DNA of 64,000 bases from Candidatus Magnetocorallium paracelense. Its GTDB lineage: Bacteria > Nitrospirota > Thermodesulfovibrionia > Thermodesulfovibrionales > Magnetobacteriaceae. Positions 13,528 to 34,189 of this stretch are shown here, piece by piece; the stretch's first letter is position 1, and each line of letters starts with the position of its first letter. Below the pieces are notes generated by a model. The model saw nothing but the letters and a program-made list of their open reading frames with translations, was not told where the DNA came from and made no database searches. Made by a program: the position numbers and the translations under genes. The DNA lies in assembly GCA_029001845.1 (NCBI GenBank), contig JAREWP010000015.1, forward strand, positions 1 through 64,000, read 5' to 3'.

Positions 13528-15057
13528 TTAATCGTTGATTATAAGTTTCTTTAAAGGCCCCGGTTCATTCTTGATAAAAGGAAAAATATAGGTTTCAAAT
13601 AGATCGTCTCTAAAATCAGCCAGTTTTAAAAATATAAAAAATCCATCTTCCTCTATATGTACTGCCGGCTGCTCCCATGCCGTATATGGAAGGTCAACGA
13701 TTGCGACCTCCTTCTTTTTCCAATTTCTTGTCCCGGCAATTTTTTTGTATCGATATATATATAGTTTATTGCCCCCAAGTATGAGGTAGTATTTATTTAT
13801 ACCAGGTACAAGATTCATATGTACTGTCTCCTCTGAGCCGATATTAACTTCCTCTCCTTTGATAAGCTCTTTGAGAAAGCGGCCGCCATTTTCAGTGTTA
13901 AACTGATAATAGCTCAAATATGCATTTTTATTATCTTTAGTAACCACAGCAAGATAATAAAAATTTTTATTTCTAATCATCTGCTTGAATATTCTCAATT
14001 TCGATCCAAGAGATCCGCTCATCCTGCCTATTTGCGATATTCTCGGATTTGGGGACCTAAGTACCATTCTGTCCATAAAATAGACTAAGGTCTCTGCCTC
14101 ATGATGAGTGACCAGTATCAGACCACTGCCGTTTTCGTCCGAGAAAAGGAGGGGAGTAGAGATAGCCCCCTTAATATTTTCTATCTCCTTATGAGTACCT
14201 GTAGAATTGCTGTTAAGGCCATCTATTTCAAAAAGGTTCACGAAGACTTTGCCGCTTCTTTCATTTATATAGAGCAGTACGATTTGATCTACATCAATAA
14301 AGACGCCAATGGGTTTTATATTTCTCTGTAGGTTTATTGTCCGTTTTTTCTCCTCTCCCATACCTTCCTTAATAGTAACGTATTGGAGGGCGTATGACTT
14401 ATCTTGTCTACTTTGAGTAATAAATACAGTATCTATTCTGTGTCTCGGAAAAAGAGATTCATAGGAGTCAAACATCAAATACATGTCACTTAACGTCTTA
14501 ATCCTGTAATCTTTAAAATCAACGAAATAATCATAACCATCTCTGATATCCCTTATTTCAAGAACAGCACGCCTGTTTCCCTGATTGCTCAGAATGAATA
14601 TATAATTGGAGTTTTCGATTTTATAATGATCGGAAAAGAACACTCTTCCAGTCAGATCTCTCCTGGATTTGCTTCTATAATTCCACAGCACGTTTTTACT
14701 TTCAATGTCAATAATATCCATAGCACGCCCATTTTCTTTCATATGAAAATCGATCTTTCGATAATAACCTATCTTTGCATGTCTATTTTCACTACTCTCT
14801 TCTCCTTCCGCATTCATATCCGGTTTTACAGGGGGTGAAGAAGCCGGCCTGACATCGATTTCCGACGTCTCGGAAAGGGGGGGGACGAAGGATTCCTCCG
14901 TTCGCAACTCTCCACTTGTCTCAGATATCCCGGTGTCATAGATTTCCTCAGCCTGTATATATTCATACCGAAACAAAATCAAGCTAAAGATAAAAAGAGA
15001 TAAAACTACAAAGCAGGAATTTTTTATTCCGGTTATTCCTTTTTTTATTAACATCAT
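13528..15057 (-). CDS. Secreted, probably beta-propeller protein of unknown function
   Basis: 509 aa. An N-terminal hydrophobic segment (about residues 12-32) is a signal peptide or anchor. It is followed by an acidic, Ser/Pro/Glu-rich linker (35-90) and then about 400 residues of beta-rich sequence with repeated aromatic strands (NYIFILSNQGNRRAVLEIRD, FYYLAVVTKDNKNAYLSYY, KYYLILGGNKLYIYRY). This is consistent with a propeller, but I recognise no family. Its ATG overlaps the stop of the FHA membrane protein by four bases, so translation is coupled. It is probably a periplasmic part of the same membrane system. Confidence 0.72.
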   Translation of the reverse strand: MMLIKKGITGIKNSCFVVLSLFIFSLILFRYEYIQAEEIYDTGISETSGELRTEESFVPPLSETSEIDVRPASSPPVKPDMNAEGEESSENRHAKIGYYRKIDFHMKENGRAMDIIDIESKNVLWNYRSKSRRDLTGRVFFSDHYKIENSNYIFILSNQGNRRAVLEIRDIRDGYDYFVDFKDYRIKTLSDMYLMFDSYESLFPRHRIDTVFITQSRQDKSYALQYVTIKEGMGEEKKRTINLQRNIKPIGVFIDVDQIVLLYINERSGKVFVNLFEIDGLNSNSTGTHKEIENIKGAISTPLLFSDENGSGLILVTHHEAETLVYFMDRMVLRSPNPRISQIGRMSGSLGSKLRIFKQMIRNKNFYYLAVVTKDNKNAYLSYYQFNTENGGRFLKELIKGEEVNIGSEETVHMNLVPGINKYYLILGGNKLYIYRYKKIAGTRNWKKKEVAIVDLPYTAWEQPAVHIEEDGFFIFLKLADFRDDLFETYIFPFIKNEPGPLKKLIIND

Positions 15058-15983
15058 AATTGACCATCCTTTCTCTTTGCAGAGCGTTTTTCATGATATA
15101 TTAAATTAGTATTTCCAACCCTGATCCTGTCATGATCCAAAAGTATATGATTGTTTTTAATTTTTGTATTCCTTACAAAAGTATCCTTTGTATCGCTTAT
15201 ATTCATAATGATTAGAGAGTCATCCTCTCTCTTTATACGGGCATGGACCTGATCTACTTCGGTATCGGGGAGATAGATGTTCGCTTTCCAGGGATTACTG
15301 CCTATGGTAGCAGTAGATTTACTCATTTTAAAATTATGAATGTATTTACTGAGATTATAAATTTTTCCTGATAAATTGCCGTTTTGCACTACGATCCAGG
15401 CATCCATTAAAATTGTGGTTATTAACGAAACAAAACCTCCGATACAAAACCCCAGGGTGCTGAGGCCCACTGCTTTTCCAATTGCCCTTGTGTCGGTCAG
15501 TCTGGAAATGACCTCAAGGAATATACTGCCAACCAATCCTCCCAATGCCCCTCCCAATGCTCCCTTTAGGGCCTGGGCGCCGCTGTTGATACTGTCAGAA
15601 ATGCCAAGTACAATCCCGAAAACGATCCACCCGACTACTCTGCCGTATGCTCCGGCTCCGATCTCGGTGAAAATAAACTCTCCTGTCAACAATCCGACAC
15701 TCCCGCTTAAAGCGCCAAGGACGCCTCCTATCATGGCCTTTTTGAATGTATGCCTGAGAGAATACCTCAATGCGATATCGGCCATATTAATAAACACCCC
15801 GATAAATGCCCCTATTACAGCTCCGTGATATAAGGCCGTGAAGTAGATATTATTACCTGTATCAAGATGTATAAAAAGTTTCTCTGAAACCAGCCAGCTA
15901 AAAACGCCTCCAATTGCGCCGAAGATTCCGTAATAGTAGGTTTTTAATGTGAGCTGAATTTTATTTATATTGTTATTATCCAT
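15054..15983 (-). CDS. Membrane protein with C-terminal FHA domain
   Basis: 309 aa. Residues ~15-215 hold about six Gly/Ala-rich transmembrane helices with repeating G-x3-G patterns (GGVLGALSGSVGLLTGEFI; GALGGALGGLVGSIF). The C-terminal ~85 residues form a forkhead-associated domain: IGSNPWKANIYLPDTEVD, then the H-A-x-I core at VDQVHARI, then a late N (RVGNTNLIYH). FHA domains bind phosphothreonine peptides, so this gene suggests an unseen Ser/Thr kinase input, although no kinase is in the window. It overlaps the vWA-RING gene by eight bases and the 509-aa gene by four. Confidence 0.82.
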   Translation of the reverse strand: MDNNNINKIQLTLKTYYYGIFGAIGGVFSWLVSEKLFIHLDTGNNIYFTALYHGAVIGAFIGVFINMADIALRYSLRHTFKKAMIGGVLGALSGSVGLLTGEFIFTEIGAGAYGRVVGWIVFGIVLGISDSINSGAQALKGALGGALGGLVGSIFLEVISRLTDTRAIGKAVGLSTLGFCIGGFVSLITTILMDAWIVVQNGNLSGKIYNLSKYIHNFKMSKSTATIGSNPWKANIYLPDTEVDQVHARIKREDDSLIIMNISDTKDTFVRNTKIKNNHILLDHDRIRVGNTNLIYHEKRSAKRKDGQL

Positions 15984-17292
15984 TTATATGAAATCCAAAG
16001 ACCTTTACAAAACGGCTGCATGCACTACACGTATGATTATTTGCGATCCAGCAGTCAATATGATGAACCGCCCCACATTGGGGACAAATGACTATTTTCT
16101 TACAAAATTCCATGCTTATAGGAAATTCCTCACTATTTTCATAGGGACAGATAGTATCTATATAAGGCGAACTTTTATTTAACGACTGAACTGAAAAAAA
16201 ATTGAATTTTAAAGAACCGACAATATGGCTCGAACCTGAAAAAGCTTTCGGCATGAAAAGTAAAACCATCAGTGTCGTAAGTATGAAACTAAAGATTCGC
16301 CACGTAGGGTCGTAGCCTCTCTTTGCCAAAGTCGCTTTTTCCGACACAGGAATTATTCCGCCGGGATTGTAAGATGCTTCTACCCTGTAGATATTACCTT
16401 CATTGTCGATTGTTATTGTAAGGTCACGGTTAAAACCGTCTCGCGATCCGGATGCTCTATACTCAAAAAAATATTCAAATTGCATCTGTCTGGCAATAGA
16501 TGTGTACAGTTGGGACAACTCATTTCCCTGAGGTGTAAAAAAAGCCTTTCCTCCTGTCGCACCGGCCATATATTCAAGTACCTCTCTGTTTATTGTTTTT
16601 TCACTGCTTCCCAGACCGATTGTAAAAATCCTCACACCGGAAGAATTATCTACAACGGACTGCGGGTCTGTTATCACACCTGTTCTGTTTAAACCATCGG
16701 TAAGGAGAATAACCGATTTATCGCCTTTAACCGATTTCATTAAATCAATGGCCTTCATGGCTGCATCATAAAGAGCTGTTGAGTTGGCAGCTTCCAATGA
16801 AAATATTTTTCCTGTCAACAACTCTTTTTCGTCGGTAAATTCCTGATTTACATAGACCTCACGATTGAAACTGATAATGCCAATTCTGTCTTCAGGTTTC
16901 ATCATATTTATAAAATCGACTGACGCTTCCTGAGCCATTTCTAACTTACCCTCTTCCTCCATACTTCCACTGGTGTCAATGACAAGAGCTGTTGTTACGG
17001 GCTTGTCTATCAGGCTCTTGAAATCGAGGAGCTTTACCGGTGCGCTATCTTCTTCTATTACTATCTCATCTTCAAGCAATCCTTCCACAGGCTCGCCCAT
17101 GCTGCTTTCAGCGAGTAATCTTATTTGAATGAGAGGAAACTGTCTGCTGTCGACAACGCCGGTGAACAGATATGTTTCACTTTCCACTACGCTGCGATGA
17201 ATATTTTCTTCAACACAACCGGCAATAAATAGAACCGTAAAGAATAGAATAAACAGATACTTTCCTATCATTACTCCTGACCTGTTAAACAT
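15976..17292 (-). CDS. vWA lipoprotein with TM segment and C-terminal RING-like zinc domain
   Basis: 438 aa. The N-terminus has a lipobox (FIAGC, Cys26). A vWA domain with intact MIDAS follows: DTSGS at 106-110, then ANSTALYDA, then LLTDG. A single TM (IFSFILTTLMVLLFM) comes next, then a treble-clef/RING-like module at 382-425 (C382, C397, C403-x2-C406, H411, C414-W415, C422-x2-C425) of the Prok-RING type. The simplest topology puts the vWA in the periplasm and the RING in the cytosol, next to the Ubl machinery encoded just upstream. RING domains in Ub systems recruit charged E2. The start could also be the ATG eight codons in (MIGKYLF). A transmembrane E3 is inference. Confidence 0.83.
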   Translation of the reverse strand: MFNRSGVMIGKYLFILFFTVLFIAGCVEENIHRSVVESETYLFTGVVDSRQFPLIQIRLLAESSMGEPVEGLLEDEIVIEEDSAPVKLLDFKSLIDKPVTTALVIDTSGSMEEEGKLEMAQEASVDFINMMKPEDRIGIISFNREVYVNQEFTDEKELLTGKIFSLEAANSTALYDAAMKAIDLMKSVKGDKSVILLTDGLNRTGVITDPQSVVDNSSGVRIFTIGLGSSEKTINREVLEYMAGATGGKAFFTPQGNELSQLYTSIARQMQFEYFFEYRASGSRDGFNRDLTITIDNEGNIYRVEASYNPGGIIPVSEKATLAKRGYDPTWRIFSFILTTLMVLLFMPKAFSGSSHIVGSLKFNFFSVQSLNKSSPYIDTICPYENSEEFPISMEFCKKIVICPQCGAVHHIDCWIANNHTCSACSRFVKVFGFHING

Positions 17293-17442: not shown

Positions 17443-18582
17443 TCAACATGGGTAATCTTCAGCAAGCTCCGTTTCGTTTGCAGGTTCATTGCTATCAGGT
17501 TCCCTGTTTAACACCTTCTTCTTTTCCTCCGATTTGTCGTTCTTATTTTGAGCATCATCCGGAGTGCTATTTTCCTTTTTTAAGATATGTTCAAAATGCT
17601 CATTAAGCTTACGATCTAAATTATTTATTGCTTCAACAGCCCTTGTGATTTGGTCATCGCGAGACTGATCGGCAACATCACTTTTCACAGATCTCATTTT
17701 TATGAAATTTCTAAATTGTACTGCTTCCTGTCGGATTATATTAATGTTATAAAATAATATGACCATCAGAACAGTTAGTATGAAAAAAAACAGTGACTGA
17801 ACAAGTGGGAATGTAAAGCGTTTCTTCTCCTTTTTCAGCACCTTTTTTTTCTGTTCCTTTGGTTCATCAACTATCGCTACGTCCTTTATGCTCGATTCCT
17901 GAGCGTCACCAGCAATGGGATATTTCTCTTTATCAGACAGCTTCTCCTCAACCTGTTTTGCATAAGTCTTTGGCGGAGTGGGAAGGTTTTGCCATGAAAT
18001 CAAGGTTTCCTGTTTTAAGTCAGGAATCTCATAAAACGATCTTAGCACCCTTGGTTCGATTCTATTATCGATCCATTTAAAGAAACCACCCTCATTGCGC
18101 CTCGGATCGAGAACCAAAGCAATTTGATATGTTTCCCTGAAATAATTTTCATGAATGAAAATATCCCTGTCAGACAGAAAGACACCATGTCCCGGGTGTG
18201 AATGATACCATCCCAACACTTTTTTATCCGGAAAACGGCCCTGATGCTCCTCATATAATGAAGAAAAAGTCCTATTCGTAAACTCGAGCTCACAAAGAGC
18301 CGCTTTTGTATGAAGGGCTTCCAGGGAAGAGTCTATAACTATATATGGAATATAAGTTTCAACATCCTCGCAGTAATCGCCTAGAAGAAAACCGCCTGTT
18401 TCCCTATTCATATCCAATGAAACATGATCGACTATAATCTGGTAAACTCTTTGTGTAATATGAATATCTATGCTCTTTTCCTCATGCATTGTGTACAAAA
18501 GCCGTTGAGATGGCAGGGGTCTGGCTGAAGGTCCGTTTTGGGCATCTGTCGAGAGTATCCTTATCATCGGTTTCTTAATCAT
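17443..18582 (-). CDS. Membrane-anchored JAB/JAMM metallopeptidase (Ubl peptidase) A
   Basis: 379 aa. The JAB domain spans about residues 36-170 with every zinc-site element: E61 in ETGGFLLG, H127-S-H129-P-G, S137 and D140 (H-x-H-x7-S-x2-D). This family removes ubiquitin-like proteins from targets or trims their C-termini. A basic stretch precedes one TM (about 275-297), and a charged coiled-coil tail of about 80 residues follows. The catalytic domain should therefore be cytosolic and the tail periplasmic. It lies 17 bases downstream of a second JAB gene, which is unusual because one JAB usually suffices per cassette. The paralogue differs in having extra TM segments and a zinc ribbon. Confidence 0.92.
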   Translation of the reverse strand: MIKKPMIRILSTDAQNGPSARPLPSQRLLYTMHEEKSIDIHITQRVYQIIVDHVSLDMNRETGGFLLGDYCEDVETYIPYIVIDSSLEALHTKAALCELEFTNRTFSSLYEEHQGRFPDKKVLGWYHSHPGHGVFLSDRDIFIHENYFRETYQIALVLDPRRNEGGFFKWIDNRIEPRVLRSFYEIPDLKQETLISWQNLPTPPKTYAKQVEEKLSDKEKYPIAGDAQESSIKDVAIVDEPKEQKKKVLKKEKKRFTFPLVQSLFFFILTVLMVILFYNINIIRQEAVQFRNFIKMRSVKSDVADQSRDDQITRAVEAINNLDRKLNEHFEHILKKENSTPDDAQNKNDKSEEKKKVLNREPDSNEPANETELAEDYPC

Positions 18583-18599
18583 AATCCTCTTTTTTTTAT

Positions 18600-20309
18600 T
18601 TAAGGTTGATTTATAGAGAGCATCAATTCGGTTTCTTTAGTCATCGTGTTATTGTCACCGGATGTGAAGATAATGACAACCGGTTCTTCTTTGGCTATAT
18701 CGGTTTCTTTAATTTCATATTCAGATTGCCAGGGATTATTGCTTTCAGTTGCACTGTTTCCTAAACTATCCTCTAAATTAAGCGTCTCAGTTATATTACC
18801 GATCTTAAACAACCCTGATATAGGTTCTATAGAGTTATCGGTAAGCTCTACAGATAGCTTGATTATATCTCCTTTTGAAACACTGCTCTTTGATTGCAGT
18901 TTCTTCTCACCAATGTTTGTAAATTTGATTAACTTCACTTTCTCTATTTTTATTTGAGGCGTACTTGGAGTTTCATCTTTTCCCTTTTTGTCTGCTTCCG
19001 CTGTATCGACGTTAGTTTTATTTTCATCGCTGATTATATCTTCCGCAACGGCTAGTTGTTTATTATTATTGTTGAGGTTTTTATGGAGTGTCGGACTACT
19101 TGTATCCACTCGGTTCAAAATATCGGGCTTTAAGTGGATGTGAGCAGTAGCTGCACCGGTGTCATTAGTGGATGGCTTAGCGATATTTTCCTTTTTTTTA
19201 TTGTCTATAACAGGAAGCAATGTGATCGTTGAGCTGAGCATGAGAGCTAAAATAATTAATGAAAAAGACGCCATATCGATTAGACGATTTTTTATCGAAT
19301 TCTTAAAGAAACCTTTGATTAATATAATAATTGCGATATTGAATAAAAAAAAGGGCGAGCTTTTTTGTATGATATCAATTAAAGTATGGATTGGGATTTG
19401 GAATTTTCTTAGAAATAAATAAAACAATAAGCAATTCAGTGTAACACCGAATGACAGGAAGGCATAAAAGCTTATTTTTTGCTTCGCTGTTGATTGTTCC
19501 GGTTCATCGTGAACTAAAGCTTTATCCTCATGTTGAGTGGAGTCGTTAGTTTCTCTTATCTTAATTCCGAGCTTAGAAGAATCCTCTCCTTTCAATGCCA
19601 TGATATCGGATCGGTTGGATATAAACTTATCGAGCTCGAAATTTTTACAATCCTTTTCTGATAATATTCTGCCCTTTCCGATCCATGAAAAAAACCCGCC
19701 TCTGTTTTTCTTTGTATCCAACACAAGGGCAACCTGCCACGACTCTTTGAAAAGGCTTTCATGTATAAAAATATCAGGATCGGATAACATTATGCCGTGC
19801 CCCGGATGGCTGTGATACCACCCGACAACCTGACGATCAGGGAAACGCCTGTTTCGTTCATTATCGATTTGAATCCATGTCTTGTGATTAAATTCCAACT
19901 TATAGTAATTAGAGACAGCATATTGCGCTTCTATAATATCTTCAATCACTATAAATTCAAACCTCTCTATCTCCTCTATGTATGCCTGTCCGATAAGCAC
20001 TCCTCCACGCTCATTGTCAGTGTCTCCCAAAACATGTTTAATCGCTTTCTTCATAGCAAATTCAGAATAAAAGATATAAAACTTACCATCTTGAGTAGAT
20101 ATTTCTATTTTTTGCAGATCAATTCCCATAGGGGGGAATTTACCTTGCATTGGCTTCATCGCAGAGGGTTTCGTAACAAAAACCCTGGGAGGCTTACCTG
20201 AGCTTGAAACGGGATTTACACATTGAATACATATTCCGTTTTTCGTCGTAATTTGTCCATTACAAACGTCGCAAACTGCTTTCGTTCCGGTATTCATTTT
20301 TGCTTTCAC
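18600..20309 (-). CDS. Multi-pass membrane JAB/JAMM metallopeptidase B with N-terminal zinc ribbon
   Basis: 569 aa from GTG at 20309, overlapping the E2 stop codon by one base. A four-Cys ribbon lies at C13-x2-C16 and C27-x2-C30. The JAB domain at ~75-215 has E100, H166-S-H168-P-G, S176 and D179. About three hydrophobic segments between ~275 and ~370 form a membrane domain. The C-terminal ~190 residues are a polar linker plus a beta-rich module that is likely extracytoplasmic. It is expected to cleave Ubl conjugates at the inner face of the membrane. The zinc ribbon may bind the Ubl or E2. The closest relative in the window is the neighbouring JAB A, with near-identical GWYHSHPGHG motifs. Confidence 0.92.
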   Translation of the reverse strand: MKAKMNTGTKAVCDVCNGQITTKNGICIQCVNPVSSSGKPPRVFVTKPSAMKPMQGKFPPMGIDLQKIEISTQDGKFYIFYSEFAMKKAIKHVLGDTDNERGGVLIGQAYIEEIERFEFIVIEDIIEAQYAVSNYYKLEFNHKTWIQIDNERNRRFPDRQVVGWYHSHPGHGIMLSDPDIFIHESLFKESWQVALVLDTKKNRGGFFSWIGKGRILSEKDCKNFELDKFISNRSDIMALKGEDSSKLGIKIRETNDSTQHEDKALVHDEPEQSTAKQKISFYAFLSFGVTLNCLLFYLFLRKFQIPIHTLIDIIQKSSPFFLFNIAIIILIKGFFKNSIKNRLIDMASFSLIILALMLSSTITLLPVIDNKKKENIAKPSTNDTGAATAHIHLKPDILNRVDTSSPTLHKNLNNNNKQLAVAEDIISDENKTNVDTAEADKKGKDETPSTPQIKIEKVKLIKFTNIGEKKLQSKSSVSKGDIIKLSVELTDNSIEPISGLFKIGNITETLNLEDSLGNSATESNNPWQSEYEIKETDIAKEEPVVIIFTSGDNNTMTKETELMLSINQP

Positions 20310-20926
20310 TAACTTTTAGAAATAATTCTTATTTTATTTCCGGCTCTGGGATTAACTGTTATTTTCCCTGTACTTTTTAAATTAACATCCACTCTTTTGG
20401 GTCTGAGTAATTCTCTTGTATCCACAGGTTTATCGATGGAAAGAATCCCTTTAGGCTCCGCCCAATCGCGGACCCATTTAGCAGCCTCACCATCGTAGGG
20501 ATAGGGAGGCTCATTTTTGGCATGATAGTTTTTGTACTGAATCATCTCTCCAATCATAATACAAATGCTATCGAGAGTCCTGTTCGCCGCCCACCATGCA
20601 GGATTTATGCAAGGACGATGAGGTTCCTTGTGCTCTATATTGGGGTGCCAGACAGGAGTCAGGCATCTCATTTGAGGTTGCTTTTTAGGGTAGTCGGCAT
20701 GCAAATAGATCTCCACTTGATGTAACTCAGCATATATTGGCTCCTGATTGTCATCGATTCCTTTTATGCCTTTGCATTTGTATGTAACTTTATATTTATC
20801 CGGCGGCATATTAGGCGAGTGGTCAATAACTTCAAAGCTTATAAGATCACTTCTTCCCGCAAGAGCGACCATCCGATTATGATCGGAAATTTTCCGTCTG
20901 TTTTGCGGAGTTAATTCTATTGCCAT
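20309..20926 (-). CDS. E2-like ubiquitin-conjugating (UBC fold) protein, cassette 1
   Basis: 205 aa. The UBC core is recognisable from its E2-type HPN motif (H94-P95-N96) after LTPVW, then the candidate catalytic Cys106 in PHRPCINPAWW, with helices following (SICIMIGEMIQY). Strands before this (KYKVTYKCKGIK, HQVEIYLHADYPKKQPQM) match the E2 meander and its Y-P-x(4-5)-P feature. It would accept the Ubl from the E1 as a thioester and pass it to a target, perhaps with a RING protein's help. The insert between HPN and Cys is longer than in eukaryotic E2s. The ATG overlaps the Ubl stop by one base, so the two are translationally coupled. Confidence 0.92.
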   Translation of the reverse strand: MAIELTPQNRRKISDHNRMVALAGRSDLISFEVIDHSPNMPPDKYKVTYKCKGIKGIDDNQEPIYAELHQVEIYLHADYPKKQPQMRCLTPVWHPNIEHKEPHRPCINPAWWAANRTLDSICIMIGEMIQYKNYHAKNEPPYPYDGEAAKWVRDWAEPKGILSIDKPVDTRELLRPKRVDVNLKSTGKITVNPRAGNKIRIISKS

Positions 20927-21201
20927 TAGGAAACCTCCCCTGCAATGATACTCTGGGTAATCGCAAAACTGCTTCCTCCTCCAAGTCCTGCTGAAGCCAG
21001 AGTTTCGTTGTCACTTAGTTCACGCCCCAAATCCTTGTTGTGAATTTTGTAACTTACAGGTTGACCATCGTTAGCGACTGTGGGCAGTGAAAGAGCTGTG
21101 ACAAGCTCCGGTATTATGTCACTAATCGGAACATCGTCGGGCAGCTCCACCTCAGAGGTTCCTCCTGTAGGTACTGTAATCTTTACTTCAATACTGGCCA
21201 T
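20926..21201 (-). CDS. Ubiquitin-like modifier (YukD/EsaB-like fold), cassette 1
   Basis: 91 aa. An N-terminal beta-hairpin (SIEVKITVPTGGTSEVEL) leads into the hallmark helix of YukD-like Ubls, DDVPISDIIPELVTALSLP, then beta-strands to the end. The second Ubl in this window (33893-34147) shares the DVPIxDxxP core. There is no terminal Gly-Gly. The tail is IIAGEVS with Gly88 three residues from the end, so one of the linked JAB peptidases may have to trim it before activation. AGGAGG lies 8 bases before the ATG. The gene sits between the RING and E2 genes, the classic place for a bacterial Ubl. Confidence 0.9.
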   Translation of the reverse strand: MASIEVKITVPTGGTSEVELPDDVPISDIIPELVTALSLPTVANDGQPVSYKIHNKDLGRELSDNETLASAGLGGGSSFAITQSIIAGEVS

Positions 21202-21249: not shown

Positions 21250-21714
21250 TTATATTTTATGATTCACTGCGCATTTACCGTCATTAGCCTCCCAGCAATC
21301 CTTATGATACTTGGCATTACATGTGGGACAAACTTCGAAACCGCCATTGCTTTCTGTTAATTCATTGCAGCAATAGACGCATTTCACATTTTCATCTATA
21401 GAAACGGAAAAAGGTTTGCCTGCAATAATTCCGGTTATTGCAACAGTATTATTTCGCCTGCCTGATTCAACCGCCTGATCGGAAGCTTTATATCCGGGAG
21501 TTAATACTCTGACATATTGCTCCTTTTTTAGTACTTTGACACGATTTCCCGAATAATCCGACCCACAGGAAGTTGATAAATAATTTGTATTATTCAAACG
21601 TCTTTTTCTCAGCCTGAATAATATAAATATCAGCAGGACAACAACGGCCCCTCCGATCGGCGCATAAACTTCTAGAGGTATATTATGTAAAATCGAGAAC
21701 ATCGCCTGCGTCAC
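21250..21714 (-). CDS. Single-pass membrane RING-finger protein (candidate E3), cassette 1
   Basis: 154 aa from GTG at 21714; ATG at 21702 is an alternative. A hydrophobic segment (about 18-33) is followed by the strongly basic RLRKRR, so the C-terminus should be cytosolic. Residues ~60-110 look like a small beta domain. Residues 112-152 form a RING-like zinc module: C112-x2-C115 (and C116), C129-x2-C132, H137, C140-W141, C148, H152. Spacing from CPxC to CW to the last Cys matches the vWA-RING protein exactly. Prok-RING domains have been reported next to bacterial Ubl/E1/E2/JAB genes. The gene overlaps the E1 gene by 20-32 bases. Confidence 0.86.
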   Translation of the reverse strand: MTQAMFSILHNIPLEVYAPIGGAVVVLLIFILFRLRKRRLNNTNYLSTSCGSDYSGNRVKVLKKEQYVRVLTPGYKASDQAVESGRRNNTVAITGIIAGKPFSVSIDENVKCVYCCNELTESNGGFEVCPTCNAKYHKDCWEANDGKCAVNHKI

Positions 21715-22879
21715 CGGTCAACTCAAAACTCATTGAGCGTTCATTTCCTACTGCCCTGATAATATGAAGCGGAGGAACGCCTATTTCATAAAGAGTCTTG
21801 TGTGAAAAATCCTCTTTTCCGGTAATTTTATTCGTAGTGGAGGGAACCATTAATTTGCCGCATCGCCTACAGTCCGATTCTTCCAAAAAGACTCTGCCGG
21901 TCGGTCTTAATACAAGCTCTTCTCTCCCGCACTCCGGACATTTTAAAGTTACAACCAGCTCATAGCCAAGCTCAATTATCGCCTCCGCACCTAAATGTTC
22001 CCCGATTATCTCCAACATCTCCTTTATTGTAGTGTCTGAGGCCTTATTCTCCTTTAGCTCAACGGGATCAGGGTAAGTATAGTGACTCATGCACTCTTCC
22101 TTTACAGGATATTCGGTTGTATATATAAGATTCGTCAAACCATTAAATACAATGGCCTTTCCGGATAATGAAAAATCATTCATTCCATGGAGCAGTTTTA
22201 ACGCTTCCTGTGACTGAATCCCTGCAATTATGGATGAAATCGTAGGGGTTGTAGGCACCTTGCCAAGGGTAATATTTTTTAATGCCAGGTCTTTACAGGG
22301 CATTCTCTGATCCAACAATACCCAATCCTGCTCAGAGAGCGTGCATTCATAACATGCGCCGTTATCAGGAGCAAAGACACGGGCTATTCCATAAAGCTCC
22401 TCTATAGCGCCGTCTACCCAGGGTTTATTCATATAACGGCAGGAACGATTAACCGACAGTCTGGCCTCTCTGTTATCAAGACACCCTATAATTACATCCA
22501 TTCTGCGAAATACCCCCAAACCGAGATCATGGTTCACATCGCCATCGAAAGTCTTTACCTTTACGGAAGAATTCATAGTTCTGACAGCCGATGCAGCAGT
22601 GTCCGTTTTCTTTTTACCATTGTCCACCTCCCTGAACAAAACCGATCTGCTCAGGTTCGCCGCCTCGATAGTGTCAACATCCAGGATAAAAAGATTTCCA
22701 ATGCCCATGAGTGCCATGTTTTTTATAACCTCGTTCCCAAGGGCGCCTGCGCCTACTACCATTACCTTTGCCTTTTCTATCTTATCCTGATCCCACCATG
22801 AGATAAGACGCAGTGTTCCGGCGCGGTCCCTTGACAAATCGGGAATTTTGACAATGCAGGATTTTTTTTGTTCAGACAT
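21683..22879 (-). CDS. E1-like Ubl-activating enzyme (ThiF fold), cassette 1
   Basis: 398 aa. The N-terminal ThiF/UBA domain has the nucleotide loop G43-A-G-A-L-G48, Asp68, the N-L-S-R motif (75-78) and D135-N136. A Cys pair at C176-x2-C179 is followed by C195 (RMPCKDL), which sits where MoeB/E1 enzymes carry the catalytic Cys. PTTPTISS then leads into the helix near the adenylation site. The C-terminal ~120 residues include a four-Cys ribbon (CPEC...CRRC). It should adenylate the Ubl C-terminus and pass it to the linked E2. The extended C-terminal region is not the eukaryotic UFD and may bind the E2. Confidence 0.92.
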   Translation of the reverse strand: MSEQKKSCIVKIPDLSRDRAGTLRLISWWDQDKIEKAKVMVVGAGALGNEVIKNMALMGIGNLFILDVDTIEAANLSRSVLFREVDNGKKKTDTAASAVRTMNSSVKVKTFDGDVNHDLGLGVFRRMDVIIGCLDNREARLSVNRSCRYMNKPWVDGAIEELYGIARVFAPDNGACYECTLSEQDWVLLDQRMPCKDLALKNITLGKVPTTPTISSIIAGIQSQEALKLLHGMNDFSLSGKAIVFNGLTNLIYTTEYPVKEECMSHYTYPDPVELKENKASDTTIKEMLEIIGEHLGAEAIIELGYELVVTLKCPECGREELVLRPTGRVFLEESDCRRCGKLMVPSTTNKITGKEDFSHKTLYEIGVPPLHIIRAVGNERSMSFELTGDAGDVLDFT

Positions 22880-25906: not shown

Positions 25907-28021
25907 TTATATCCTCCTTTGCTTAAGACGCTCCCTGGTAGAAGCAGAATAAACGGCCCTTCGTCCCTTTATCCCAAGCCTCCGCGAAACAGCGTTATAA
26001 ACCTCATGCTTAATATCGCCTATGGGTCTCTCCTCCCATGGTTTCAAAAAGAACCAGAAAATCTCCTGATAATCGGAACGCTTTGGCTTTCTCTTTACAC
26101 GCGCCAATACATTCCCGGAACGTCTTCCCGGCTGCCGGGACCGTGTTTCAGAGATTGGTTCAGAATTATTATCGGAGGACTCAAGCTCCTTGTAGAGTTC
26201 CACAAGCAGGTTTGTAATAATTTCACGCACCTCCGGTTCATAAGTACGCTCATTATCTTTATCCGAAAAGGCGTCGAGCCAATTCGCCAGCAGGTTTACA
26301 TTGATTTGGCTTATCAATATATTATAGAAGTCGGATATTTCCTCGGGATTGGAAGCAGAGCGAATGACTGAGGCAAAGACATTGATGATAGTTTTTTGGA
26401 TCTTGTCATCCATGCTTTGTGTGAACACCAGCCACAAAGCTTCCACACTCTTACGCCCCAGATTTTTTTGATTTACTATTCCCTCCTTACCATTATCGAG
26501 GAGTTCCTTTTTTATAATTCCAAGAAAAACATCCAACATTCTTTGAAAGAAGTCCACTTGTATTTTTTTTAGATTCTTATCTTGCTCCGATACGACCCAT
26601 TGGCTCAGCTTAGTCAACACATCGCGATAAAAGCCGCTCAAACCTAAGACAACAAGAGAATATATCACTGCATCCAAGAGATATTTTTTATGAGATAAAT
26701 CTGAAATCGTTCTTTGTTTTTTCAGTACATATTGTAGACAGTTTAGTGCAACATCTATATCCGCTTTACCGATCTCCTTGCATACGGAAGCGGATGTCCA
26801 CTGAAGTCTTATGTCTCCCGTATTAACCCAATCTTTCAAATATACAAAAATGCTCTCACGAGACAAACCGCTCTCAACTGCTTCGGTCAATATAAATCCA
26901 CTGGCAGCTCTAATGCCTAAATCGTTGCTGATCGCCCAGGTACTTGTTAAGAGGTTGAAGACATATCCGGCGCCATGTTTCATAAATCCGCCGATTGCAT
27001 GCCCTATTTGACGACGATCTTCCCATGATAGATCCGGGCCGGTGATGATAATGTCGAATAATATTGGAATTATCTGAGTGATTGCTATATCTCTGTGCTT
27101 TTGACGAATAAAGTTGTCGATCTCAGGTAAATGCTTACTGTCAAAACAAACCACATCTATTGTGTGGCCTCCGATTTCACGGGTTTCTACCCGGGCATCG
27201 ATTCTGTCAAGAGCAGACATAAAGCTTTCTTCTAAAATGGATGGTTGTACCTGGGCTTGTGCATTTTGGTCGTTGTTTATACTGCTTTGAAATCTATTCG
27301 CCTTTTGTTCTCCTATTGTGGGTATGCCTAAACTATTTACAACTCTGTTAAATATCGATTGAAGAGTCACCCACTCGATTTGAGGAAACATAATTATAAG
27401 AATTGAAATTATTATGTCTCTGTCATACAGTTCGTCCCTACACTGCAATAGTCTGGCTTCTCCTGCTGCATGTGAAGTATCTCCGCCTGTGTTTTCACTT
27501 TGTAGTCTATTGATCTTCTCTGCGTATTCATTCGCTTCTTTTGTATACTCCTCGATAGCCAGCTTAGCCTTATTAAAATTCTCCGGGTTGAATACCGGAT
27601 CGGTTGCGTTCTTAACTTTTAACCAGCGATCTAATAAATCCTCGGCTGTATGCTTTAGCTGCAAGTTATAACGTATTTCATTATCTCTGGAACTAAAAAG
27701 TCGACTTTCTAACCCCCTTACCAACTCCTTGTCGGATAATATTTCATCGATTATTGAGTTGTTGTCAGTGATGGTGTGTTCGTCATTTATACTCTCCCGA
27801 TTGTCAGATTCGGAAGTAAGTGACACCGGGTCCGCCTCTTCATCTACTGCTGTATCCGCTCCATCTGAAACAGTAGTTCCTCCGTCTCTATCGGTTACAA
27901 CATCACCTGTATCAGTACTTTCGCCTGAGATATTTCCCTCCGGTTGTTCCATGCTCTGAGCACTCTGGCTCTCAGAGACAGGAGTCGTTTCGGAAGAAGA
28001 TCGATTTTCCTCTGTTGACAT
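25907..28021 (-). CDS. Large helical protein with disordered acidic N-terminus
   Basis: 704 aa of no family I recognise. Residues 1-95 are Ser/Thr/Glu/Asp-rich and probably disordered. Residues ~98-175 are helical and carry a segment (TDPVFNPENFNKAKLAIEEY, 140-159) that matches the C-terminal segment of the neighbouring TIR protein (TDPIHDPERYEEIKLKIEVY). The middle (~190-620) looks like HEAT/ARM-type helices; the tail is basic and Arg-rich (GRRAVYSASTRERLKQRR). It is translationally coupled to the 980-aa gene with a two-base gap. A scaffold that brings the TIR effector to the 980-aa protein is a reasonable guess. Confidence 0.72.
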   Translation of the reverse strand: MSTEENRSSSETTPVSESQSAQSMEQPEGNISGESTDTGDVVTDRDGGTTVSDGADTAVDEEADPVSLTSESDNRESINDEHTITDNNSIIDEILSDKELVRGLESRLFSSRDNEIRYNLQLKHTAEDLLDRWLKVKNATDPVFNPENFNKAKLAIEEYTKEANEYAEKINRLQSENTGGDTSHAAGEARLLQCRDELYDRDIIISILIIMFPQIEWVTLQSIFNRVVNSLGIPTIGEQKANRFQSSINNDQNAQAQVQPSILEESFMSALDRIDARVETREIGGHTIDVVCFDSKHLPEIDNFIRQKHRDIAITQIIPILFDIIITGPDLSWEDRRQIGHAIGGFMKHGAGYVFNLLTSTWAISNDLGIRAASGFILTEAVESGLSRESIFVYLKDWVNTGDIRLQWTSASVCKEIGKADIDVALNCLQYVLKKQRTISDLSHKKYLLDAVIYSLVVLGLSGFYRDVLTKLSQWVVSEQDKNLKKIQVDFFQRMLDVFLGIIKKELLDNGKEGIVNQKNLGRKSVEALWLVFTQSMDDKIQKTIINVFASVIRSASNPEEISDFYNILISQINVNLLANWLDAFSDKDNERTYEPEVREIITNLLVELYKELESSDNNSEPISETRSRQPGRRSGNVLARVKRKPKRSDYQEIFWFFLKPWEERPIGDIKHEVYNAVSRRLGIKGRRAVYSASTRERLKQRRI

Positions 28022-28162: not shown

Positions 28163-28894
28163 TTATTCCATTGATTTCAACTCTATCTCTAATTTATCTA
28201 GCTCCTGAGAGTAGACCTCAATCTTTAATTTGATCTCTTCATATCTTTCGGGATCATGAATCGGATCCGTCACCTTAAAAATCTTTCTAAAATGCTGTAT
28301 ACGCTCCTGAATATTTATAATCTGCTCTTCCCATGCATCTATTTTACTTTTATGGGCATGACACTTTTTGTTTCTACGAGTTTCTTTCAAATAATTCTCT
28401 ATTCTTTTATATTTAAAGTTAATTTGTTCGTTAAAAAATCCTTCTTTAATCAGATCACATATGCCTTGAACAACGTTATTAAAGGCTTCATCTATATTAG
28501 GCCAGCTTGTTACCGCCTTCCCGTTATGTGGGAGAGCTTGAAGTTTACCTAAAGGTGTAACATCCCAATGACAATCACGGAGAATAACTGGTACGATAAC
28601 AGCATCACCAAAATTCTGCCTCGCCATTGCATGCTTCATTTCAACACCATAACAGAAATCAGATTGAATAAAATCCGATGAAATAAGAAGCAGGATTATA
28701 TGGGCATTATCTAAATGCTCATTTATTTCCCCTTCCCACTCTTGTCCGGATAGAATTTCACGATCATGCCAAATATTAATAAGACCACAACGCTTTAAAG
28801 CCATAAGGTGACTTTTAAGATTATTTTTTAATTCCTCATCCTTGTGAGAGTAGGATATGAAAAGGTTAATAGGTGTATTTAAATATTTATACAT
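28163..28894 (-). CDS. TIR-domain protein with C-terminal helical adaptor segment
   Basis: 243 aa. Residues ~8-150 form a bacterial TIR domain (TIR_2 type): NLFISYSHKDEEL, NIWHDREILSGQEW, HIILLLISSDFIQSDFCYGVEM with candidate catalytic Glu85, VIVPVILRDC, LQALPHNGKAVTSWPN. Many bacterial TIRs cleave NAD+ on activation in immunity, and others act as scaffolds. Residues ~160-243 are a coiled coil ending in a segment shared with the 704-aa protein downstream. The start lies 12 bases after the ATPase-phosphoesterase stop. Its place between two Ubl cassettes suggests a regulated effector, but toxicity cannot be judged from sequence. Confidence 0.9.
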   Translation of the reverse strand: MYKYLNTPINLFISYSHKDEELKNNLKSHLMALKRCGLINIWHDREILSGQEWEGEINEHLDNAHIILLLISSDFIQSDFCYGVEMKHAMARQNFGDAVIVPVILRDCHWDVTPLGKLQALPHNGKAVTSWPNIDEAFNNVVQGICDLIKEGFFNEQINFKYKRIENYLKETRRNKKCHAHKSKIDAWEEQIINIQERIQHFRKIFKVTDPIHDPERYEEIKLKIEVYSQELDKLEIELKSME

Positions 28895-28906
28895 CGTTTG
28901 AATTTA

Positions 28907-30958
28907 TTATAAATCAAAGTCACCTGAGTTACTATCTTTGAAAATATTATTATCTGAGTCATAGATGTTTCTGATTATTTTATATGATTGTGAATTGTTA
29001 TGATTAAAGATTAAAAGATTAAAACCAGAAATTTTATTATTTTTTTTGCATAAAGATCCTGCGTCAATGGATAAAGGAGGTATGGTTTTAAAATTATCTA
29101 CTGACAAACAACGCTTATAAGTGTAAAGATGAAAATGGCCATGCAGAATCATATGAAACTTATAATCGGTCAAGAACTTTAAAAACATGGCAGAGTTTTT
29201 TAATTTTAACAATGAATTATGATATCTTCTTATAAGTAGTGGCACACTACTATCGTTAATCTCAGTCGGGCTATGATGAAGAGCAGCTATTCTAATAGTA
29301 TTGTTTGAAGGCTTTTCTGCGATTAATTTATTGTTCATTATATCTTTGAGTTGAAGCTCTGAAACAATCCCCTTTGCTTTATATTTACGTTTCTTTGAAG
29401 GTGTAGAATGAAAATAGAAAATTTCAAAATTAATATTCTTTATTTCAATCTTTAGATTGGGTGATAACATTCCTGTATAAGGAAATAACTCTTTTACTTT
29501 GGCATCATGAGCTGGTGGTACATCAGCATTCTTATGATAGTCATGATTTCCAAAGCCTATGATCATTCTTTGATGTTTAGGAGAATTTGATAAATAAGCG
29601 AGGTCAATTTCATTGAATTCTCTACTTGCATCGATAAACTCTTCTGGTTTACCTGATTCAGTTATATCACCAGTTATGATTAGTATATGAGGTCTTATAA
29701 TATTAATTTTTTCTATAGCAGCTTTTAATACAAAAGAATCATGTTTTCCTATATGAGTATCTGAAAGATGTACTATTCTAACATCATTTTTTTCTCTAAT
29801 AAATTTAGGGAAAATAAGCGGATTAATTGTTAAAAATTTATTATAGTCTGATGAGTTTGATGATGCATCCATGTTTAATATTTCAGGAGTGCTTTTTATT
29901 TTAAGTATTTTTTTACCGATAAGTGTATTAATGGCTTTTTGAATGTTAGCTTGTTCATAGTTATGTTTTTCATTTATTTTATTGATCAAAACGTGTTTAT
30001 CGACAGCATATTTAAAATTGGTCGTTATATCCTTTTTAATGTAAGTAATCTCTGTTAATAAATCTTTTTCTTCATTTGACAATTTATTATAGTGTTTATC
30101 AAAGGTATCAAGTTCCATATGCTTTAATTCATTGACAATAACACAATTTATAAAATCAGCATTTATTGTAGAAATATTATTATTAACGCAATACTTTACT
30201 ATATGGCTGAATATGAGTTGAAACCAAAAGGGGAGTCCACCAGAAAGATTGTATATTGTGGAGATTGTATCATCAAGATTATTAAAGGTTATGTTATATA
30301 TTTTTTTTATTAAAGGATAATAATACTCCTTTATTTTATTGGTATCAATATAATCAAGAGTAAATAGTTCAATTTTTAAAGTCCCAATATTTCTAAAAAT
30401 AGTGTCAGCAATAGGTAGAAAAATATCCTTCAATTTACTTTGAAGTATATTTTTATCTTTTACCAGCTCACCTTCATGATCAGTGATCGAGAGTGAAATA
30501 AAACTGATTATATTAGCGCTGCAGATAATATTTAGCAGCTCCATTAAATATTTTGTCTGGTCATTGTTGGTATCTTTAAAATAGCTTTTAATGGTAAATA
30601 ATAAATGTAAATCGTCTATTATATAAACAATATTAGAATGCTTTTTTAATTCATTGTTTAATTGTTGAAATTTACTATCAATAAAGGTTTCATTAAAATG
30701 TCGGTTTGTAATAGCAAAAAAAATCTTTTCAATAAGCTGACTAATTAAATTATTATAATTATCTGATTTACAGTCAAACTCTTTCAAATGAAGAGTAACA
30801 GGTTTATAATCATTCTTTAACCTTAAATGCAATAATGTTAAAAGCGTAGTTTTACCCATTTGAGATAGAGAATTAATAAAAAAGAGTTTTGCCTCTATCT
30901 TTTTTACATCATCTTTTATTTCATTTTTTTTATTTTTTTTAATACTTTTACTACTCAT
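28907..30958 (-). CDS. P-loop ATPase fused to calcineurin-like metallophosphoesterase
   Basis: 683 aa. The N-terminal part is an AAA/STAND-like ATPase with a Walker A variant S30-L-S-Q-M-G-K-T37 (first Gly replaced), Walker B VYIIDD at 111-116, and a later GGLPFWFQLI motif typical of STAND/orc-type ATPases. A winged-helix-like region (~290-355) follows. Residues ~393-660 are a calcineurin-like phosphoesterase with all motifs: D400-T-H402, G430-D431, GNHD at 470-473, a later HH, and GHFH. The gene is much more AT-rich than its neighbours (16 G/C in the 60 bases 30001-30060). A sensor ATPase controlling a nuclease or phosphatase is my reading. Confidence 0.88.
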   Translation of the reverse strand: MSSKSIKKNKKNEIKDDVKKIEAKLFFINSLSQMGKTTLLTLLHLRLKNDYKPVTLHLKEFDCKSDNYNNLISQLIEKIFFAITNRHFNETFIDSKFQQLNNELKKHSNIVYIIDDLHLLFTIKSYFKDTNNDQTKYLMELLNIICSANIISFISLSITDHEGELVKDKNILQSKLKDIFLPIADTIFRNIGTLKIELFTLDYIDTNKIKEYYYPLIKKIYNITFNNLDDTISTIYNLSGGLPFWFQLIFSHIVKYCVNNNISTINADFINCVIVNELKHMELDTFDKHYNKLSNEEKDLLTEITYIKKDITTNFKYAVDKHVLINKINEKHNYEQANIQKAINTLIGKKILKIKSTPEILNMDASSNSSDYNKFLTINPLIFPKFIREKNDVRIVHLSDTHIGKHDSFVLKAAIEKINIIRPHILIITGDITESGKPEEFIDASREFNEIDLAYLSNSPKHQRMIIGFGNHDYHKNADVPPAHDAKVKELFPYTGMLSPNLKIEIKNINFEIFYFHSTPSKKRKYKAKGIVSELQLKDIMNNKLIAEKPSNNTIRIAALHHSPTEINDSSVPLLIRRYHNSLLKLKNSAMFLKFLTDYKFHMILHGHFHLYTYKRCLSVDNFKTIPPLSIDAGSLCKKNNKISGFNLLIFNHNNSQSYKIIRNIYDSDNNIFKDSNSGDFDL

Positions 30959-31005
30959 ATCATAATTCCTTATTTTATGGATAATATTTTTTTAACAGCA
31001 TCATC

Positions 31006-32502
31006 TCATGTTACCTTTTTTATAATATGCTCCACTAAGTCGCTTTTATGATCGTTAAAGATGATAGATTCATCCTTAATAGAATGATTCATATCAAAGA
31101 TGTTAATATTATCCTCATGAAAGCGCATTCTTCCTATCACTTTTTGCATATAATAGATTGTATATGAAGTATTCATATTTATTATATGCATGACTCCCAC
31201 CTGCTTAGCAGTATGAGTTAAACGTATACTTATTTTATTTGAAAGTTGAGTTATTAATGACGGTAACTTATCCTCTCTTTTTATTAAGAATAAAATTGAT
31301 GAATCATCTATTTTTTTATCGCTTATAACAGTTAACTCCATATTATCAGCAAAACAGACTGCATACTCTTTACCCGGTTTAACTAGACTGCATGATACAT
31401 ACCTGAGCTTACTATTTTGTAAATGCATGAAATGCTCATTTGGGACAATAATCAATGTATGTTCGAATTTAGCATATGTACTTGATGGCGGTTCAACGCC
31501 AATAGGTTTACCTGTTTTAATATTGAAATAATATCTCTTTTTATTAATAGTACAGATTATATAACTGCCTTTTGATTGAGTGTAATCATTTTTCCAGGAT
31601 AAAATACTTTCCAAACTTTCCTTTGATAAGTTACCACCCTCATCAATAAATACTTGAGAGTATTTCATATCGTTCAGTTCTTTGTTCCCATTTAAACGTT
31701 TACTGCTTTTACCAAAGGCAAATACAATTAATCCAAAAGATACTATAGTAATTAACACTAATGAAACGAATTGAATTCTTATCGCATAAAATAGAAAGTT
31801 ATTACTATAATCAACAAGACCATATAGAAACTTATCTACCTGCCCCAAATTGTTTGAACTTATCTCTTCTGAAATTGCAGTATGTAATTCTATAAATGTT
31901 CTTCTGCTTATTCTCTCATACCCTTCCTCAACATTGAGAAGCTTCCAAAAAAATAACAATGCATTATCAAGTTTTTGAAACTCAGTATTTGTAAATTTTA
32001 TAAAATCATCTGTTTGGTTATTTATAGTTTTACTTTTTTTATCTTTTCTTTTTAACTTACCCTCTAACACTGAGTTTGAAGAAAATTTAGTGTAGTTTAT
32101 ACCACTAGATAAAAGTAATACTTTGTAATTCTCAAAAGGGTTGTTTTTCGCTATATCTATTGCTTTCTGTACAGCACCTTTTAAATCTGATTCAGTCTGT
32201 TTTTTTATGTTATTACTGTTGTTTTTGATAAATTGATATATTGCATTAATATCGTCTTCTTTTTCATTTGTTTTATTACCAGTTGTAATAACAGATATAT
32301 CATCACCCTCTGCTGTTTCTTCTAAAGCACTAATGATCTCTTTTATCAGATCATAATCTTCTTTTGTATATAAATCCGATAAGTCAAGCAAAATAATATA
32401 CTTAAATTGCTTGACCTCATAATTAAAAAAATAACTGTAATAGCAAACATTAAAAGTAATTACGGCTACTATCAAAAGTGAATATACATATCTTCTAATC
32501 AT
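31006..32502 (-). CDS. Membrane protein with degenerate vWA-like domain
   Basis: 498 aa. An N-terminal TM (about 5-27) is followed by a vWA-like fold: YIILLDLSDLYTKEDYDLIK stands where a MIDAS D-x-S-x-S would be but lacks the final Ser, and LLLSSG stands for the usual SDG. A second TM (~245-265) precedes a C-terminal ~230-residue domain of mixed strands that I do not recognise. Metal binding is thus doubtful. It plays the same positional part in cassette 2 that the vWA-RING protein plays in cassette 1: next to JAB and membrane-spanning. AT-rich like the ATPase-phosphoesterase gene. Confidence 0.72.
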   Translation of the reverse strand: MIRRYVYSLLIVAVITFNVCYYSYFFNYEVKQFKYIILLDLSDLYTKEDYDLIKEIISALEETAEGDDISVITTGNKTNEKEDDINAIYQFIKNNSNNIKKQTESDLKGAVQKAIDIAKNNPFENYKVLLLSSGINYTKFSSNSVLEGKLKRKDKKSKTINNQTDDFIKFTNTEFQKLDNALLFFWKLLNVEEGYERISRRTFIELHTAISEEISSNNLGQVDKFLYGLVDYSNNFLFYAIRIQFVSLVLITIVSFGLIVFAFGKSSKRLNGNKELNDMKYSQVFIDEGGNLSKESLESILSWKNDYTQSKGSYIICTINKKRYYFNIKTGKPIGVEPPSSTYAKFEHTLIIVPNEHFMHLQNSKLRYVSCSLVKPGKEYAVCFADNMELTVISDKKIDDSSILFLIKREDKLPSLITQLSNKISIRLTHTAKQVGVMHIINMNTSYTIYYMQKVIGRMRFHEDNINIFDMNHSIKDESIIFNDHKSDLVEHIIKKVT

Positions 32503-32555
32503 TAGATGTATCCTATAATATAGTTATTACTATAATACATTTTTTATATATAAAA

Positions 32556-33218
32556 TCATTTAATTTTTGATTGTACATTTTTAGAAATATTACTTTTAAA
32601 TAAAGTGAATCCTGTTTTTTTACCTATTTCCATGCTTCCCTGATCTGTATAGTGCCAAAAAAAAACACCTGCATCGCTATTTATAGGATCTATAATTAAT
32701 GAAATGTGCCATGGTTCAAAAAAAATAGTTCTGAATGTTTCAATATCTGTGGAAGACATAAAGACCGTATAGCCGGGATGGCTGTGATACATTCCCAGCC
32801 TTATTATTTCAGGGTCCTTTCTGTTGACTTCTTCAAGATATTCGTCCAACATTATAAAAAAAGTATGTGTGAACCTCATAAGAGCAGGAGCTGAAAAATT
32901 TTCGTTCACCTCCGGTTTAGCAGGGAAGACATCGAAGATCATATTGAAGCATTGGTCCGTTTCATTATCCTTACAATACTTTCCCAACAAGGCGCCTCCG
33001 ACTTCGTTACGCATATCGCTTTCAGCGTGTGCGCAAATCCTTTGATAAGTATCTTCCTCTATGAATGTAATCAACGATTCATGATATGGATGAGACAAAT
33101 TACTGTGTTGAGGTTCCTGAATACATTCAATGTCAGGGTGAAAAAAGGGCAGTCTTATCTTTATCGGCTCACCAAATGGTTGTTCATTTAAGGATCTATT
33201 TTCCATTTTCATAATCAT
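32556..33218 (-). CDS. Soluble JAB/JAMM metallopeptidase, cassette 2
   Basis: 220 aa made up almost wholly of a JAB domain. The zinc ligands and catalytic residues are all present: E72 in NEVGGALLG, H145-S-H147-P-G, S155 and D158. Unlike the two JABs of cassette 1 there is no TM and no tail, so it is cytosolic. Expected role: removal of Ubl from targets or trimming of the Ubl tail. It lies six bases after the E2 stop in the order E1-Ubl-E2-JAB. A start two codons in (MKMENRS) is also possible. Confidence 0.92.
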   Translation of the reverse strand: MIMKMENRSLNEQPFGEPIKIRLPFFHPDIECIQEPQHSNLSHPYHESLITFIEEDTYQRICAHAESDMRNEVGGALLGKYCKDNETDQCFNMIFDVFPAKPEVNENFSAPALMRFTHTFFIMLDEYLEEVNRKDPEIIRLGMYHSHPGYTVFMSSTDIETFRTIFFEPWHISLIIDPINSDAGVFFWHYTDQGSMEIGKKTGFTLFKSNISKNVQSKIK

Positions 33219-33224
33219 AAACTT

Positions 33225-33803
33225 TCATTTCTTTAGAACTGTAACTTTAACTGAAGTCTTTTTTTTAATATTAATATTGACTTCTTTTTTAGGTAATACC
33301 TTAACGGTGGGAGCATCGGCAACATTAAAATCGATATCTGAAAGAGGAATCCGATGAGTACGAATCCACCCCTGCCAGCCGTTCTCAGATAATGTGCCCC
33401 TTGCCGGACTGTCCAAATTATATGAATCCCGAGAAAAACGAATCATATTTCCAATATCGTAGACTAACTGGTCTATGTCATAAGCGAATGTCCAGCTTTG
33501 ATGAGTAAATCCCAAACATACATTGCCATTTACAAATACATTCGGGTGCCATAATTCATCAAGAAACTTAAACATGGGAGCTTCATTAATGGGATAGCCT
33601 CCTGGAAAAAACATCTCTACATGGTGAGTATCACGAGTCAGACCTTCTTCATTTACATACCCGGGAACCTGATAAATGAGTAAATATTTATAGGGCGGAC
33701 TTCCATCTATGGGCTCAATAGAAATATATTGGCTTTTATTGTTGACATTCATAAGTATTTTTTGATCATTCGTTAATCTGCGCAAACGCAAGGCATTGCT
33801 CAT
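33225..33803 (-). CDS. E2-like ubiquitin-conjugating protein, cassette 2
   Basis: 192 aa with a UBC core: strands YKYLLIYQVPGYV and HHVEMFFPGGYPINEAPMF, the HPN motif at 86-88, and candidate catalytic Cys96 in VNGNVCLGF, at spacing very close to eukaryotic E2s (HPN-x7-C). Helices follow (QLVYDIGNMIRFS). A basic C-terminal tail (KKEVNINIKKKTSVKV) resembles the tail of the cassette-1 E2 (RPKRVDVNLKSTGKITV), so the two are paralogues. AGGTGAG lies upstream of ATG 33803. It should form a thioester with the Ubl encoded next door. Confidence 0.92.
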   Translation of the reverse strand: MSNALRLRRLTNDQKILMNVNNKSQYISIEPIDGSPPYKYLLIYQVPGYVNEEGLTRDTHHVEMFFPGGYPINEAPMFKFLDELWHPNVFVNGNVCLGFTHQSWTFAYDIDQLVYDIGNMIRFSRDSYNLDSPARGTLSENGWQGWIRTHRIPLSDIDFNVADAPTVKVLPKKEVNINIKKKTSVKVTVLKK

Positions 33804-33892
33804 ATTCTCACCTGTATAATATAAAAGCTTTATTCCTCTTAATTCTCATTTAGAGAGCAGGTTAGTGGGTATTATCCAACTATATATCGATT

Positions 33893-34147: not shown

Positions 34148-34189
34148 GCTGTATCCTCCATGAAAATAGTTTTCATAATTATTAAATTT

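Follow-up and report, generated by a model that had tools for sequence, protein, structure and literature searches.

Bacterial ubiquitin-like systems examined to date have mainly been regarded as soluble anti-phage systems. In 2011, Burroughs, Iyer and Aravind reportedly described RING-containing bacterial E1-E2-Ubl-JAB operons. The window analyzed here, a single stretch of 64,000 nucleotides, contains a cassette (cassette 1) of this already known RING/Ubl type, and it is a variant with membrane-anchored JAB peptidases. Its E1, E2, Ubl, JAB and RING genes are adjacent on one strand, within a co-directional minus-strand series in the order 704-aa protein, 980-aa protein, E1, RING-TM, Ubl, E2, JAB1, JAB2, vWA-TM-RING and FHA-TM (Table 1).

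Catalytic Domains and Cassette Partners

Both JAB1 and JAB2 score above the Pfam curated cut-offs for JAB/MPN (PF01398, E 5e-7 and 3e-12, respectively) and for Prok-JAB (PF14464). A preliminary description of this DNA had assigned a complete JAMM site to each of the two tandem proteins, and the coordinates, the strand and the E, H-x-H, S and D residues were all verified. The JAMM residues also show no variation when 56 related JABs, most of them of the TM type, are aligned. From their sequences, JAB1 and JAB2 are two adjacent and apparently active JAMM peptidases. Compared with solved folds, the JAB1 model comes nearest to the Caldiarchaeum Rpn11 homologue and to Rpn11, with Cap3 also among the fold matches. 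A sequence search with the JAB2 domain agrees, its best PDB matches being of the Rpn11 type and including the archaeal Rpn11-homologue:ubiquitin complex. In the AlphaFold model of JAB1 (32 aligned sequences), the JAB domain has a pLDDT of about 95. The N-terminal zinc ribbon described for JAB1 stands as a cysteine pattern, C13-x2-C16...C27-x2-C30, while the DZR_2 match (E 0.017) falls below the threshold. JAB1 and JAB2 are mutual closest relatives by identity (41-46%), and their pairing in the tree is weakly supported (86/18). The pair is likely, but not certain, to have arisen by local duplication.

Table 1. Positions in the window of the cassette 1 genes, their JAB subfeatures and the cassette 2 JAB
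Feature	Positions	Strand	Basis
E1 (ThiF) with C-terminal extension	21683..22879	-	Pfam 2e-54
N-terminal TM + Prok-RING_1, candidate E3	21250..21714	-	Pfam 3e-6, slightly below cut-off; above cut-off in whole-genome search
Ubl, YukD family, C-terminus IIAG-EVS	20926..21201	-	Pfam 8e-13; C-terminus comparison
E2 (UQ_con)	20309..20926	-	Pfam 2e-8
JAB1: CxxC-CxxC N-terminus, JAB/MPN+ domain, three TM, ~200 aa tail	18600..20309	-	Pfam JAB 5e-7; TM analysis; AlphaFold
JAB1 putative zinc ribbon, C13 C16 C27 C30	20220..20273	-	sequence; DZR_2 E 0.017, below cut-off
JAB1 catalytic domain, E100 H166 H168 S176 D179	19674..20075	-	Pfam; alignment; fold match to Rpn11 homologue 6fnn, E 1e-9
JAB1 TM1, residues 281-302	19404..19469	-	hydropathy; helix in AlphaFold model
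JAB1 TM2, residues 319-336, weakest of three	19302..19355	-	hydropathy; helix in AlphaFold model
JAB1 TM3, residues 346-368	19206..19274	-	hydropathy; helix in AlphaFold model
JAB1 tail, predicted extracytoplasmic	18603..19205	-	odd TM count; no Pfam match; low pLDDT
JAB2: JAB/MPN+ domain, one TM, ~100 aa charged tail	17443..18582	-	Pfam JAB 3e-12
JAB2 catalytic domain, E61 H127 H129 S137 D140	18031..18483	-	Pfam; alignment
JAB2 TM, residues 256-278, hydropathy 2.5	17749..17817	-	hydropathy
JAB2 charged tail, predicted extracytoplasmic	17446..17748	-	no Pfam match above cut-off
vWA-TM-RING with lipoprotein-type signal	15976..17292	-	Pfam VWA 6e-15; TM; Prok-RING_1 3e-5, below cut-off; RING, local profile 2e-10
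Multi-TM protein, C-terminal FHA domain	15054..15983	-	Pfam FHA 2e-9; homologues in related cassettes
Cassette 2 JAB, soluble	32556..33218	-	no TM

The JAB1 start codon is GTG and overlaps the stop codon of E2, the two frames sharing one base. The cassette 1 Ubl is a single 91-aa protein with one YukD match in Pfam. Its C-terminus reads IIAG-EVS, and clipping would leave ...AG. Among the Ubls of related loci, AG is the usual ending and GG occurs in some; several have a short extension beyond it (ITAG-KE in L018, ITAG-ALS in L137). The comparison suggests a maturation site shared among related Ubls, and for the window Ubl, cleavage by a JAB behind AG is the obvious, predicted maturation step. 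The protein at 15976-17292 is predicted to combine an extracytoplasmic vWA domain and a cytosolic RING in one chain, and is a candidate E3. The Pfam scan gave no informative match for the 980-aa and 704-aa proteins. The 704-aa protein (25907-28021), upstream of E1, matches a Chloroflexi Ubl-operon protein (L031:3414-5051, E 2e-14) and is probably a conserved helical-repeat partner.

Membrane Segments and Orientation of the Tails

Hydropathy places TM segments C-terminal to the JAMM domain in both proteins, as first described, with three in JAB1 and one in JAB2. When the tails were shuffled (20,000 trials), the best segment was equaled in 3 shuffles for JAB2 and in 451 for JAB1. All three JAB1 segments are helices in the AlphaFold model, with block mean pLDDT values of 67-91.

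The orientation of these segments can be approached through the relatives. LysM binds peptidoglycan and requires an extracytoplasmic location; therefore, the LysM-bearing relatives must be N-in/C-out. Of the 56 related JABs, mostly TM-type and a few with sub-threshold segments, 28 have a LysM domain according to Pfam; this set was gathered by TM-type JAB profiles and its rows are related, so that its fractions are not population estimates. Wherever the arrangement was mapped in full loci (13/13), LysM lies C-terminal to the hydrophobic segment. No export signal was found N-terminal to the JAB domain in the JABs examined. The single N-terminal segment that was flagged, in L032, sits inside a fused Ubl domain. 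Of 16 single-TM proteins, 13 have unequal flank charges, and 11 of these favor N-in (Wilcoxon p 0.004; the rows are related). An outside position of the tail is thus a well-founded reading for the JAB family, drawn from the LysM domains of relatives.

For the two window proteins, the claim that the tails lie outside is largely supported by our topology analysis. It agrees with the LysM tails of relatives and with the flanks of the JAB2 segment, where 9 K/R fall in the 15 residues before it versus 2 after it. Conversely, the JAB1 charges are ambiguous, with K/R-rich stretches on both sides of TM3 that favor neither topology. Three segments, an odd number, would give JAB1 the same N-in/C-out orientation as its relatives. 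Should one of them fail to span the membrane, JAB1 would have two TMs and a cytosolic tail, and only the JAB2 tail would be outside. TM2 is indeed the weakest segment, and lysine-rich stretches (KKK) follow TM3. However, the AlphaFold model has three separate helices, the related proteins are C-out, and the JAB1 tail is free of cysteine, with an N/T/D-rich linker. We therefore regard a cytosolic JAB1 tail as quite unlikely. Most likely, both JAB1 and JAB2 have a cytosolic catalytic domain and an outside tail.

The tails themselves carry neither LysM nor any other domain recognized by Pfam, and no recognizable sensor. A folded domain in the JAB1 tail was not confirmed; the tail has no Pfam match and an AlphaFold pLDDT of about 30-40. 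A β-sandwich hinted at by the strand pattern was not adopted; modeled alone, the tail reached a pLDDT of 34. A search of its own genome gave no second copy of the JAB1 tail, and the sole weak match among 295 genomes of the phylum, inside a ferredoxin-type oxidoreductase, was judged to be due to chance. JAB1 and JAB2 thus fall outside the JAB-TM-LysM class, in which LysM follows the TM. Among the open-access papers searched, none describes a JAB with LysM in a Ubl-operon setting, and an earlier description is possible. Tails vary widely among the relatives, from LysM, TPR (L017), NTF2-like and helical types to almost none (L021 g06, L029 g01). In the JAB-TM protein L147:3839-5350, the tail matches the NTF2-like family Cds6_C.

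Distribution of Anchored JABs and Their Partner Genes

Relatives were collected by a scan of genome contigs, which gave 26 named loci; profiles made in this work then served to map the neighboring genes, both there and in a further 40 longer stretches. The 26 loci come from Armatimonadota, Bacillota, Actinomycetota, Cyanobacteriota, Chloroflexota, Planctomycetota, Bacteroidota, Ignavibacteriota and others. In the phylum of the window, the related JAB is uncommon: 2 of 395 genomes have it, including the source genome, which is too few for a comparison of close synteny. In the phylum samples of L017, L031 and L029, matches occurred in 53 of 291, 12 of 301 and 21 of 294 genomes, respectively. No JAB2 relative was found in the viral contigs searched.

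A TM follows the JAB domain in 39 of 85 homologous JABs (about 69 loci, a biased sample), and one further protein, with LysM, lies just below the threshold. By comparison, just 3 of the 168 E1, E2 and Ubl proteins encoded in these loci have a segment above the TM threshold. The preliminary description had held that Ubl-operon JABs are as a rule soluble. This premise fails for the JAB1/JAB2 family, in which a C-terminal TM is common (about 40 of the 85 homologues) and is seen again and again in at least six phyla. Its example, the JAB of cassette 2, is correctly described as soluble. Cassette 2 (28163-35365) has a lower GC content and its own E1, Ubl and E2, and adjoins vWA-TM, AAA-metallophosphoesterase and TIR proteins. 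Because the assumption of rarity is wrong for the family, JAB1 and JAB2 become a less singular find, and the class to which they belong becomes more interesting.

In a tree of 84 JAB domains, well-supported branches force at least 5 label changes for soluble and at least 7 for TM without LysM. Anchoring has therefore arisen or disappeared on repeated occasions. L017 and L021, too, have two TM-JABs in a single locus, and a TM-JAB next to a soluble one is a common arrangement. Several loci have unusual architectures. L009:7330-10986, from the same family as the source, encodes an E2-JAB-TM-tail fusion, and the adjoining TM protein combines PEGA and lytic-transglycosylase (SLT_2) domains. L019:8523-9951 (Clostridiaceae) has a Ubl and a JAB-TM-LysM protein, with neither E1 nor E2 found within 18 kb. 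In L032:6822-9372, a Ubl-CHAT peptidase fusion adjoins a Ubl-JAB fusion.

The neighbors of anchored JABs also differ from those of other JABs. A RING, FHA-TM or trypsin-TM gene is present in 24 of 29 TM-JAB loci versus 9 of 32 loci that lack such a JAB (Fisher p 3e-5, an optimistic value, as the loci are related). The main exception is in Chloroflexota (L148-L155), where the JABs are soluble yet RING-TM and FHA-TM genes are present. In Planctomycetota cassettes, the RING, the TMs and a trypsin-like domain are fused in one protein (L140:4586-5950, L137:4424-5731). The catalytic and RING parts would all lie on the cytosolic side, with the vWA, LysM and trypsin-like parts outside. This is the layout expected of a trans-envelope system, which may have a sensing role.

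Proposed Working and Comparison with Known Systems

We propose, as a rather probable reading, that JAB1 and JAB2 are JAMM Ubl peptidases of the cytoplasmic membrane, with cytosolic catalysis and outside tails, serving a membrane-based Ubl cascade. The domains, the intact active sites, the TMs, the cassette and the LysM-after-TM arrangement of relatives were computed, and from them we infer the activity, the cleavage site and the topology in the window. The cascade would be partly membrane-based through two RING proteins, one with an extracytoplasmic vWA domain, and the FHA protein. A JAB would trim EVS from the Ubl precursor and expose ...IIAG; E1, E2 and a membrane RING would then join the Ubl to membrane-proximal targets, and the JABs would remove it again at the same membrane. 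The outside tails, LysM in many relatives, would keep the peptidase at the cell wall, and through them its activity or location may be linked to the state of the envelope.

Gating of the JABs by envelope signals, as first suggested, is plausible and speculative. In its strongest form, the JABs would be transmembrane, wall-coupled deubiquitinase-like receptors, and the rate of Ubl removal from inner-membrane proteins would be set by the outside domain when it binds peptidoglycan or fragments of it. We hold this to be somewhat unlikely; if true, it would constitute a bacterial ubiquitin-like envelope-sensing pathway. It is quite possible instead that the anchors serve for positioning only, the tails being passive spacers or wall anchors on constitutive JABs whose main work is to mature and recycle the Ubl; the envelope would not be sensed. 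Such a passive role is consistent with the lack of a recognizable sensor in either window tail and with the diversity of tail types across relatives, and the ligand of LysM is a structural polymer, so that it could be a fixed anchor. However, the cassette partners repeatedly bear extracytoplasmic domains of the vWA or trypsin-like kind, the RING-TM-trypsin fusions among them, which suggests that trans-membrane signaling belongs to the system.

If a widespread branch has its peptidases, ligases and partners in the membrane and exposes peptidoglycan-binding, vWA or protease domains on the outside, a role in envelope biology would be indicated, and the question arises whether the wall controls Ubl removal. 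The bacteria concerned probably run Ubl tagging tied to the cell envelope, and possibly this tagging is controlled from the envelope.

The cassette could also be an anti-phage system of the Bil or CBASS kind, anchored for phage detection at the envelope. The E1-E2-Ubl-JAB bacterial operons studied to date are apparently mainly anti-phage (PMC12687455), and cassette 2, with its TIR and AAA/phosphoesterase genes, lies nearby. Against this, PADLOC matches only generic E1-E2 and JAB models, the BilC and BilD matches are weak, and cassette 1 has neither a tandem Ubl nor an E1-E2 fusion. An anti-phage function of this kind therefore appears unlikely.

The known systems share parts of cassette 1 to different extents. 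The Rpn11-type enzymes, including the archaeal Rpn11 homologue, have the JAB fold and the JAMM residues in common with JAB1 and JAB2, but they are soluble or belong to the proteasome lid, whereas JAB1 and JAB2 are membrane-anchored and belong to a bacterial operon. Type II CBASS combines E1/E2 chemistry and a JAB peptidase (Cap2/Cap3), as does cassette 1; its E1 and E2 are fused in Cap2, whereas those of cassette 1 are separate genes, and no CD-NTase was found among the cassette proteins scanned with Pfam. BilABCD also brings together Ubl, E1, E2 and JAB peptidase. However, its Ubl (BilA) has tandem domains, and cassette 1 has a single Ubl, a RING and membrane partners. The RING-type operons reportedly described in 2011 share with cassette 1 separate genes for E1, E2, a YukD-like Ubl, a JAB and a Prok-RING protein. 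Cassette 1 appears to differ from them in its two membrane-anchored JABs and its lipoprotein vWA-TM-RING.
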